DNA of 64,000 nucleotides from Rhizobiales bacterium GAS188 (lineage in GTDB: Bacteria; Pseudomonadota; Alphaproteobacteria; Rhizobiales; Beijerinckiaceae), in the NCBI GenBank assembly GCA_900104855.1, contig FNSS01000001.1, positions 4,898,001-4,962,000 of the forward strand, written 5' to 3'. The notes under the pieces are model-generated. The model was not told where the DNA came from. It saw only the letters and a program-made list of their open reading frames with translations, and did no database searches. Position numbers and translations under genes: made by a program. Below are positions 20,213 to 29,190 of the stretch, in pieces; position 1 is the first letter of the stretch; each line of letters starts with the position of its first letter.

Positions 20213-20430
20213 TACCTCTCCCCTTGCGGGAGAGGTCGATCCGAGCCGCCAGGCGAGGATCGGGTGAGGGGGGCTGGCGCCGACCCCGGGCGGACCGACC
20301 AATAGGCAATCGCAGCAAGCTTGGCATTGGAATGGATGCCGTGACCTGATTCCCGAGGGCGGCAGCTGCCCCCCTCACCCGGATCACTCCCTGCGGTCGC
20401 GATCCGACCTCTCCCACAAGGGGAGAGGTG
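20213..20430. repeat. MITE-like palindromic element, copy B
   Basis: A 218-bp element with the same build as copy A: left end ACCTCTCCCCTTGCGGGAGA, right end CTCCCACAAGGGGAGAGGTG, inner blocks GGGTGAGGGGGGC and GCCCCCCTCACCC, and a core with GCAATCGCAGCAAGCTTGG that is nearly identical to the core of copy C (CAATCGCGGCAAGCTTGG at about 29067). It occupies most of the 353-base gap between the omega-aminotransferase stop and the cupin start. No gene lies in this gap. Confidence 0.78.
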
Positions 20431-27638: not shown

Positions 27639-27711
27639 CACCTCCCCCCGAAAGGGACCCCTTGTGGGAGAGGTCGGCTTTGAAGAGCGAAGCGATGAGA
27701 AGCCGGGTGAG
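27639..27711. repeat. MITE-like element, copy C, left part (interrupted by IS110)
   Basis: This 73-base piece begins CACCTCCCCCCGAAAGGGAC and ends CCGGGTGAG, the left arm of the element described as copies A and B. The arm stops at the point where A and B continue with GGGGGC. The missing right part resumes at 29030, after the IS110 element. Confidence 0.72.
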
Positions 27712-27758
27712 CAACTGTGATTTTGGGCTCCCGATTATGTCATTGGGCCAGCGGTCTC

Positions 27759-27821
27759 GGGACCGTCAATGACGCTTCGCGCCGCCTGCGGCGGTGGCCT
27801 TCGGCCATCATTGACCGTCCC
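27759..27821. repeat. Structured inverted repeat in the IS110 3' non-coding end
   Basis: Arms GGGACCGTCAATGA (27759-27772) and TCATTGACCGTCCC (27808-27821) pair over 14 bases with one mismatch. The 35-base loop contains two further small hairpins (CCGCCTGCGGCGG and TGGCCTTCGGCCA). It lies 80-142 bases after the transposase stop, inside the element. It may terminate transposase transcription or protect the messenger. Confidence 0.6.
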
Positions 27822-27900
27822 TGCGAGCGCTGGCCTTCGGAGGCGCAGGTCGGGACGAAGGGATGGTCGCTCGCCGGTCGAACCAAGGGATGGTCGGGGG

Positions 27901-28842
27901 TCATGCGGTTTTGACCTGCCAATCCATTCCATCGCGCACCATGGCGTTGAGGATGACCAGGAGCTTGCGCATGCAGGCGACGAGCATGACCTTGGGTTCC
28001 TTGCCGGCAAGCCGCTTGGCGAATTCGGCAATGATCGGATTGTGGGTCCTGGCCGAGAGGGCGGCCATATAGAGCACCTCCCGCACCGCCCCCCGTCCAC
28101 CCTTGATGTGGCGCTTGCCGCTGCGCTGGCCGCTGTCATTGTCGAAAGGAGCGACACCGACCAAGCTGGCAATGGCGCGCCGCGACAAGTGGCCGAGCTC
28201 GGGCAGGAGCGCGATCAGCGTCTGCGACAGCACCGGGCCGACGCCGGGCACGGTGCGCAGCCGCCTGGCGAGCCCGTTCCAGTCGGCATGCTCGGCAGTG
28301 AGCTTGGCCAAGGCCTTGTCATGGGCTGCGAGCGCGCGTTGGAACTTGACCCGCAACGCCTCGGCCGTGCGGCGCAGCGCCTTATCGCGCAGGTGCTCGA
28401 GCTGGTTGGTGCAGTCGTCGATCCAAGCGCGCAGCTGACGACGGAACGTCAGGTGCTCGCTCAACGAGTCCAGTTCGCGCCGGCGGCCGGGTTGGGGAGC
28501 CTCGATCATCACCGCGGTGAACTGCGCAATCGTGCGGGCGTCCACACGATCGTTCTTCGCAAGCCTGCCCTTGGCCTGGGCGAAGCGACGCACCTGCAGC
28601 GGGTTGAGGAGCGCGACCTCCAAGCCCTGCGCCTCCAGCGCGTCGATGACCTCGCGCTCATACCCGCCCGAGGCCTCCAGGCCAACTCGCACCACCTGGC
28701 GCTCCCTGAGCCAGAAGGCGAGCTCTTCCAAACCGGCAGCATCACGCTTGAACCGCGAGACCTCGTCACGCTTCGGCCAAAGCGCGACGTCGAGCCATTG
28801 CTTGCTGACATCGATGCCGGCATTCGTTACCATCTGTGCCAT
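27901..28842 (-). CDS. IS110-family transposase (DEDD recombinase with serine)
   Basis: A 313-residue RNA-guided-type recombinase. The RuvC-like N-terminal domain has Asp11 (NAGIDVSKQ), Glu56 (GLEASGGYE), and Asp98 and Asp101 (KNDRVDART). A coiled-coil stretch follows (about 130-185), then the HhH-like VPGVGPVLSQTL. The C-terminal Transposase_20 domain contains VGVAPFDNDSGQRSGKRH, where the conserved Ser of the DSG motif (Ser237) is the likely nucleophile, and KGGRGAVREVLYMAALSA. The gene is complete. Its ATG at 28842 lies inside the closing stem of the predicted leader RNA. Confidence 0.94.
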   Translation of the reverse strand: MAQMVTNAGIDVSKQWLDVALWPKRDEVSRFKRDAAGLEELAFWLRERQVVRVGLEASGGYEREVIDALEAQGLEVALLNPLQVRRFAQAKGRLAKNDRVDARTIAQFTAVMIEAPQPGRRRELDSLSEHLTFRRQLRAWIDDCTNQLEHLRDKALRRTAEALRVKFQRALAAHDKALAKLTAEHADWNGLARRLRTVPGVGPVLSQTLIALLPELGHLSRRAIASLVGVAPFDNDSGQRSGKRHIKGGRGAVREVLYMAALSARTHNPIIAEFAKRLAGKEPKVMLVACMRKLLVILNAMVRDGMDWQVKTA

Positions 28843-29000
28843 CTTCCGATCCCTTCCTTGCGGTTCGGCCTTCGTGACCGTGCAACTGTTCGGGCTTGTG
28901 AAGATGGAGAGAAGGCACCTTGCTCACCCACGGTCTTAAGCCAAGGGGGTAACGGGCTCTCCTCTCCAGGGCCGGCGCGGCGGCCTACCGCGCCGGCCCA
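28839..29000 (-). ncRNA. Predicted bridge RNA (seekRNA) of the IS110 element
   Basis: On the minus strand the leader folds into three parts in order. (1) A 12-bp hairpin, 28999-28969, with GGGCCGGCGCGG pairing CCGCGCCGGCCC. (2) A stem-loop closed by GGAGAGGAG (28967-28959) and CTTCTCTCC (28914-28906), with internal segments CCCCCTTG (28949-28942) and GGGTGAG (28929-28923). (3) A stem-loop closed by CCATCTTC (28907-28900) and GAAGATGG (28846-28839) with ACAGTTGC (28889-28882). CCCCCT equals the target left of and including the core CT, GGGTGAG is complementary to core plus right target CTCACCC, and ACAGTTGC equals the element's right end plus core C. This order matches a bridge RNA with target-binding then donor-binding loop, as known for IS621. 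No search or expression data support it yet. Confidence 0.62.
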
Positions 29001-29029
29001 GTCCTTTTTGGCACATTTTCAAGACACAA
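28843..29029 (-). promoter_or_regulatory. IS110 left-end non-coding leader
   Basis: This is the 187-base leader between the element's left end and the transposase ATG. In IS110-type elements a promoter is completed only when the ends join in the circular form. Here the left end begins TGTGTCTTGAAAATGTGCC on the minus strand; a -10-like AT-rich patch is visible (GAAAATGTG) but no good -35 box, consistent with the -35 being supplied by the right end after circularisation. Confidence 0.4.
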
Positions 29030-29190
29030 GGGGGCAGCGCAGGCTTCGGGGAACCCTGCCAATACACAATCGCGGCAAGCTTGGAGCCGGCGTGGCTGCC
29101 CTGAGCTGGCTTCCCAAGGCAGGAGCTGCCCCCCTCACCCGGAGCACTCGCTGCGCTCCTGCTCCGACCTCTCCCGCAAGGGGAGAGGTG
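29030..29190. repeat. MITE-like element, copy C, core and right part
   Basis: Continues copy C after the IS110 insertion: it begins GGGGGCAGCGC, contains the core CAATCGCGGCAAGCTTGG shared with copy B, then GCCCCCCTCACCCGGAGC and ends CTCCCGCAAGGGGAGAGGTG. Together with 27639-27711 it rebuilds a full element of about 230 bp. It sits just downstream of the DUF1684 gene stop. Confidence 0.75.

Follow-up and report, generated by a model that had tools for sequence, protein, structure and literature searches.

A probable IS621-type bridge RNA in the leader of an IS110-group element inserted in REP-like repeats

Background

IS621 of Escherichia coli carries its guide RNA in the left end of the element, with a target-binding loop followed by a donor-binding loop; in the accessible parts of its descriptions, the left guides equal and the right guides complement the transposase strand, and the core is CT (PMC11208160, PMC11208158). 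ISEc21, another member of the IS110 family, has an upstream non-coding RNA, the seekRNA, in which the match to the bottom strand lies 5' of the match to the top strand (PMC11187229, in part). ISPpu9 of Pseudomonas putida is an IS110-family element that resides in REP sequences, and its structured leader has been proposed to bury the ribosome-binding site (PMC8450116, in part). The element described here, on the minus strand of a 64,000-nt stretch of Rhizobiales bacterium GAS188 DNA (the window), is like IS621, ISEc21 and ISPpu9 in these respects. Its leader very probably encodes an IS621-type bridge RNA, with guides that match both the element ends and the target repeat (Table 1). With good support, the assignment adds a further case to a kind of system already known: the element is ordinary in kind and, as far as the searches reach, looks new as an individual.

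Table 1. Coordinates of the element, its target site, its gene and the predicted parts of its leader, in window positions
Feature	Position	Strand	Basis
IS110-group element, 1317 bp without cores	27712..29028	-	exactly the same stretch common to 12 copies
Left core CT	29029..29030	-	dinucleotide common to both ends
Right core CT	27710..27711	-	junction comparison
Left target flank, CTGCCCC in window copy	29031..29037	-	junctions of copies
Right target flank CACCCG, 12 of 12 copies	27704..27709	-	junctions of copies
Recombinase, 313 aa, D11 E56 D98 D101 and S237	27901..28842	-	domain matches, alignment
5' GC hairpin of bridge RNA	28969..28999	-	fold
Target-loop outer stem, 5' strand GGAGAGGAG	28959..28967	-	fold; swap test
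Left target guide UACCCCCUU	28943..28951	-	guide scan; weakest guide, 6.5 of 8
Right target guide GGGUGAG, complement of CTCACCC	28923..28929	-	guide scan
Target-loop handshake bases CA, pairing donor positions 7 and 6 (G, T)	28921..28922	-	
Target-loop outer stem, 3' strand CUUCUCUCC	28906..28914	-	fold; swap test
Donor-loop outer stem, 5' strand AUCUUC	28900..28905	-	fold
Left donor guide ACAGUUGC, equal to element right end ACAGTTG plus core C	28882..28889	-	guide scan
Donor-loop inner hairpin, holding CACGAAG	28866..28880	-	folds
Right donor guide ACCGCAAG	28857..28864	-	guide scan, alignment; layout as in IS621 (PMC11208158, in part)
Donor-loop handshake bases GA, the G pairing target position 7 and the A unpaired with position 6	28855..28856	-	
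Donor-loop outer stem, 3' strand GAAGAU, holding start-codon A and U	28841..28846	-	fold

Element ends, copies and target site

A search of the element's own genome found 12 full copies, with 99% identity or more across the element and no differences in the first 195 nt of the leader. All 12 are inserted at the same place and in the same orientation in a REP-like palindromic repeat, and their comparison fixes the ends, bearing out the proposal of an earlier, sequence-based note that the element is bounded by CT cores. There is no duplication beyond the core: only CT is common to both ends, and uninterrupted sites have one CT. The site pattern is a run of five to seven Cs, then T, then CACCCG. 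Counted with the core C, the run (left target 29031-29035 in the window) has five Cs in the window copy, six in nine copies and seven in two, a variation that could come from slippage or from loose pairing of the left guide; the letters 5' of it are GCTG in 11 copies and GTCG in one.

The uninterrupted target, the 17-mer GCTGCCCCCCTCACCCG, has 90 exact occurrences in the genome as against none for a reversed control, and 135 as against four when up to two mismatches are allowed; 15 uninterrupted sites were read in eight fetched stretches. Two uninterrupted copies lie on the + strand of the window itself, at 29125-29141 and 20365-20381, one of them in the repeat adjoining the element. Elsewhere in the genome, at C2:416676-417032, there are three Y1_Tnp (PF01797) matches, one of them strong; this locus is possibly the REP-associated transposase for the target repeats.

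The putative bridge RNA precedes the gene, within the left end, and so places the element in the IS110 group rather than IS1111. As to the subterminal inverted repeats of 7-17 bp that are an IS1111 trait, reading the ends by eye found only CACA/TGTG flanking the donor core. The right end, at 189 bp, is about as long as the left, at 186 bp; in IS110-group elements the left end is usually the longer one, according to the accessible text of PMC11208160. The right-end stretch 27712-27900 folds strongly (-77.5 kcal/mol). About 50 nt of it recur at six other places in the genome with 92% identity, and a 126-nt part recurs at a seventh with 85%; the stretch is possibly a host repeat that the element carries.

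Recombinase and relatives

The recombinase matches the N-terminal RuvC-like DEDD domain PF01548 (E 1.6e-21) and the C-terminal domain PF02371 (E 3.8e-17), both above cut-off, as well as NF033542, 'IS110 family RNA-guided transposase'. It is 28% identical to the recombinase of IS621, which it matches in the PDB with E 9.4e-26. All five catalytic residues are kept, and in an alignment of 14 relatives and IS621 they are identical in IS621 and in the proteins of all 15 groups. The IS621 counterparts of D11, E56 and D101 are D11, E60 and D105. Those of D98 and S237, catalytic D102 and S241, are given in the accessible text of PMC11208158.

Relatives were searched in 248 genomes of the family and 397 of the order. 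The set chosen comprised 14 multi-copy groups, with two to five copies fetched for each and their ends and targets read; cores and anchors were assigned by hand once the junctions had been read. The recombinases of these relatives are 34-44% identical to that of the window, and among all 15 the median identity is 36% and the maximum 63%. The best full-length relatives among the matches listed are 46-47% identical, in addition to one plasmid place at 60-80% that is counted with its details unlisted. A search of genome contigs for relatives gave only one, and the element is absent from three of three other genomes of its genus, one of which has a weak 52-nt match (E 4.5e-4).

Predicted fold of the leader

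Folding gives a 5' hairpin, a target-binding loop and then a donor-binding loop that ends at the transposase start codon. The GC hairpin, the two stem-loops and their IS621-like order had all been proposed in the earlier note, and direct reading of the sequence places its segments where it had put them: GGGTGAG at 28929-28923, ACAGTTGC at 28889-28882 and CCCCCTTG at 28949-28942. The fold of the leader (28835-29000) has an energy of -80.3 kcal/mol (z -3.67, none of 200 shuffles as good); when the 5' hairpin is removed z is only -1.50, with 15 of 200 shuffles as good, so the two guide loops gain little support from folding a single sequence. An Rfam scan of the region returned nothing above gathering score. 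Whole-leader MAFFT alignment yielded no consensus structure, probably because the guides and the 5' part vary, and it was replaced by landmark-based folding in which guide bases were barred from pairing.

Both loops are kept across related leaders, as strand-swap tests indicate. None of 20,000 strand swaps gave as good a target-loop outer stem, and for the donor-loop stem 58, 248 and 54 of 20,000 were as good at three segment lengths; these shorter segments replaced longer ones that reached into the target-loop stem (138 of 20,000). By-eye counts of folds with guides barred find the target-loop outer stem in every one of the 15 leaders, the hairpin between its guides in 14 (not in G008b) and the donor loop in 12 (not in G037, G443 or G475). 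RNAalifold on the donor loop recovers the closing pairs and the inner hairpin, with compensating changes in six of ten pairs; the four pairs that join guide stretches are probably not real in the complex.

A donor-loop model of six pairs matches at E <=0.01 in 42 of 46 further loci, a set chosen from outside the 15 groups and lacking the partial L046, L058 and L059. The matches sit at the 5' end of the transposase, on our reading of the coordinates, and IS621 is one of the 42, matched at its own donor loop (E 0.0086). Second matches at E <=0.01, away from the query transposase, occur in L075 (2466-2539), L076 (3017-3110) and L085 (2867-2949) and perhaps belong to neighbouring elements.

Guides and their sites

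In the target loop, the predicted guides are preceded by the linkers CGU (left) and GU (right). The right target guide stands as earlier proposed, being the complement of CTCACCC and fitting its own target in the scan, and so does the left donor guide, which equals the right end of the element and the core C. The left target guide also stands in kind, with a shift of register: the IS621 register gives UACCCCCUU, at 28951-28943. Against the six-C target of nine copies it has one mismatch and one wobble in eight, and the fit is worse for the five-C window copy and the two seven-C copies; scored alone against the window leader, another relative's target surpasses its own (7.0 versus 6.5). The right donor guide is, by guide scan and alignment, ACCGCAAG, split as in IS621: CAAG pairs with CTTG, a G.T wobble follows, one base is flipped out, and AC completes the pairing. 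For the window leader alone, 9 of 3000 CT sites drawn at random from the window reach the target-guide score and 11 of 3000 the donor-guide score, which makes the evidence from this one leader moderate.

Comparison among relatives provides strong evidence for a bridge RNA. The cores of the 15 groups are CT in ten, CC in four and AT in one, the flanks differ, and leaders with other guides belong to other, matching targets. When targets are swapped among leaders and scanned with left and right guides together, the leader's own target is best in all 15 (alone in 12, tied in three), the mean score being 13.2, compared with 10.9 after swapping. In the donor scan the own and swapped means are 13.4 and 11.7, and the own donor is first in 11 of 15 (six alone, five tied) and not first in four. 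In neither test was any of 20,000 permutations as good. Taken singly, the left target, right target and left donor guides likewise each give 0 of 20,000, and the right donor guide gives 0-8 of 20,000, depending on the scoring; with the core left out, the right flank performs less well (331 and 452 of 20,000). A single guide ranks its own site first or tied in 5 or 8 leaders of 15 (left target), 9 (right target), 10 or 11 (right donor) and 14 or 15 (left donor), the paired values reflecting different scorings. One relative, G008b, has the same right target guide GGGTGAG as the window element and sits in the same right target, CTCACCC.

At handshake position 1, all 15 leaders pair with the other DNA through either loop. 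The donor-loop pairs are G:C, A:T, C:G and one G.T; the target-loop pair is always C:G and so carries no information. Position 2 pairs in 8 of 15 leaders in the target loop and in 4 of 15 in the donor loop. Two groups have features of their own: G436 (L121-L125), with the AT core, has GT at the left in one copy and a target-loop handshake CU of which both bases pair AG, and the target of G443 (L128-L132) lies within a conserved repeat, so that the shared left flank runs well past the element.

The start codon in the predicted donor-loop stem

In the full fold the A and U of the start codon (28842-28840) pair within AUCUUC/GAAGAU. Start-codon pairing was followed in 39 leaders with donor loops folded alone, the product of similarity filtering of 47 (13 of the 15 groups and 34 of the 42 loci matched by the donor-loop model). 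Left out were G448 and G436, in which no start codon follows the right donor guide at a distance of 4-24 nt; L045, a copy of L044; L086, L036, L051, L075 and L074, in which start codon or guide was unplaced in range; and L087 and L054, which lack a guide pattern. The start codon lies 8-19 nt 3' of the right donor guide in the 39 leaders (4-24 allowed), and at least two of its bases are paired in 25 and at least one in 31. With swapped strands the former number averages 17.9, and 1 of 150 swaps reaches 25; the mean of donor-stem pairs, 11.6, is above all 150 swaps. Start-codon pairing in these folds thus appears to exceed modestly that of swapped strands. Before filtering, 40 of the 42 loci could be placed, with at least two bases paired in 25 and at least one in 30. 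In G008b and G020 a GUG start codon faces CAC in place of CAU, and in short-segment duplexes the start codon is unpaired in 6 of the 15 groups. Unlike the window element, whose start codon is folded inside the stem, IS621 has a gene that begins directly after the RNA, if the bridge RNA ends where we take its 3' end to be; when IS621 is folded likewise, part of its start codon can pair.

In ISPpu9, weaker structure in the 5' UTR leads to more tnp translation, according to the accessible part of the report (PMC8450116). Taken with the start-codon pairing in the window element and in the 39 leaders, this suggests that guide and message might compete for one RNA. It is quite possible, though we would stop short of calling it probable, that in this branch of IS110 the donor-binding loop doubles as the translation start of the recombinase, its closing stem pairing the start codon and the ribosome-binding site lying between the right donor guide and the stem. 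If so, one RNA would serve as guide or as message, and a recombinase that binds its own leader would stop its own synthesis. A literature search for bridge RNA or IS110 together with start codon or ribosome binding site found nothing on this topic, most subscription papers and preprints lying outside its scope.

Proposed mechanism and alternative explanations

On the bridge-RNA reading, one transcript would carry both loops. In the target loop, the left guide would pair with one strand of the REP-like site and the right guide with the other, in the stretch around the CT core; the donor-loop guides would pair with the excised circle where its two ends are joined. Both DNAs would be held on the bridge RNA by the DEDD/serine recombinase, which would cut next to the CT; strands would then be exchanged with the help of the handshake bases, and the circle inserted without duplication. 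For the window element we infer transcription, binding, circle formation and recombination alike. No good promoter was found across its circle junction, the best junction-spanning sigma-70-like site having 6 of 12 letters; TTGAC occurs at one fixed place in 8 of 14 relatives.

The leader might instead be a plain structured 5' UTR that controls transposase translation, as in ISPpu9, with guide matches that arose by chance in C-rich sequence. The ISPpu9 experiment and the start codon within the donor-loop stem, both in the window fold and with at least two of three bases paired in 25 of 39 leaders, are in keeping with such control, as are, for the window leader alone, the 9 and 11 of 3000 random sites that match its scores. 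Chance would not easily make all 15 leaders fit their own targets when none of 20,000 swaps does as well, nor would it easily make guides change along with the CT, CC and AT cores; this account is highly improbable. That all 12 copies lie in one palindromic repeat family would also be expected if a protein recognised the REP palindrome or its structure and the RNA served otherwise. Related recombinases, however, have quite different targets, each written in its own leader, and we give recognition by protein hardly any credence.

Within the bridge-RNA reading, the position of the right donor guide can be disputed. The earlier note had offered CACAAG (28900-28895), located 5' of the left donor guide, or CACGAAG (28876-28870), which in the folds forms the inner-hairpin loop. 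CACAAG makes the longer unbroken match to the left end of the element, six bases to CTTGTG. It nevertheless shares position 28900 with the donor-loop stem and is without an equivalent in the aligned G457 leader; in IS621 the right donor guide is found on the other side of the left one, as the accessible text of PMC11208158 has it. The 3' site (28864-28857), by contrast, occupies the same columns of the alignment in 14 of the 15 leaders, as we read it, and its core-facing letters AAG, AGG and AAU track the core in 15 of 15 by hand assignment. CACAAG is therefore a very unlikely right donor guide, and ACCGCAAG is the one adopted here.

Read as a bridge-RNA element, this is a compact multi-copy system with readable guides and 90 exact uninterrupted targets in its own genome. 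The 15 leader-target pairs, with CT, CC and AT cores, form a test set for guide rules, and the placement of the start codon in the stem makes sharing of the leader between guide and message directly testable.

Comparison with described systems

Named relatives in the plasmid collection are the ISMno7-annotated IS110 elements of Methylobacterium nodulans plasmids, which are about 43% identical. ISEc21 differs from the window element in that its target is a linear site in IS3-family transposase genes and that a 74-nt short form with the target matches is the more abundant RNA, by the accessible account (PMC11187229). ISPpu9 differs in its two small RNAs, Asr9 and Ssr9, as described in the available portion of PMC8450116. 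With IS621 the window element shares the same five catalytic residues and, as far as the accessible texts describe them, the split right donor guide ending in CAAG with its non-canonical G-T contact (PMC11208158), the handshake bases and a REP target (PMC11208160, PMC11208158). Unlike IS621, it has target and donor guides of its own, a long right end and one base flipped out in the right donor guide, where IS621 has two according to the same partial account.
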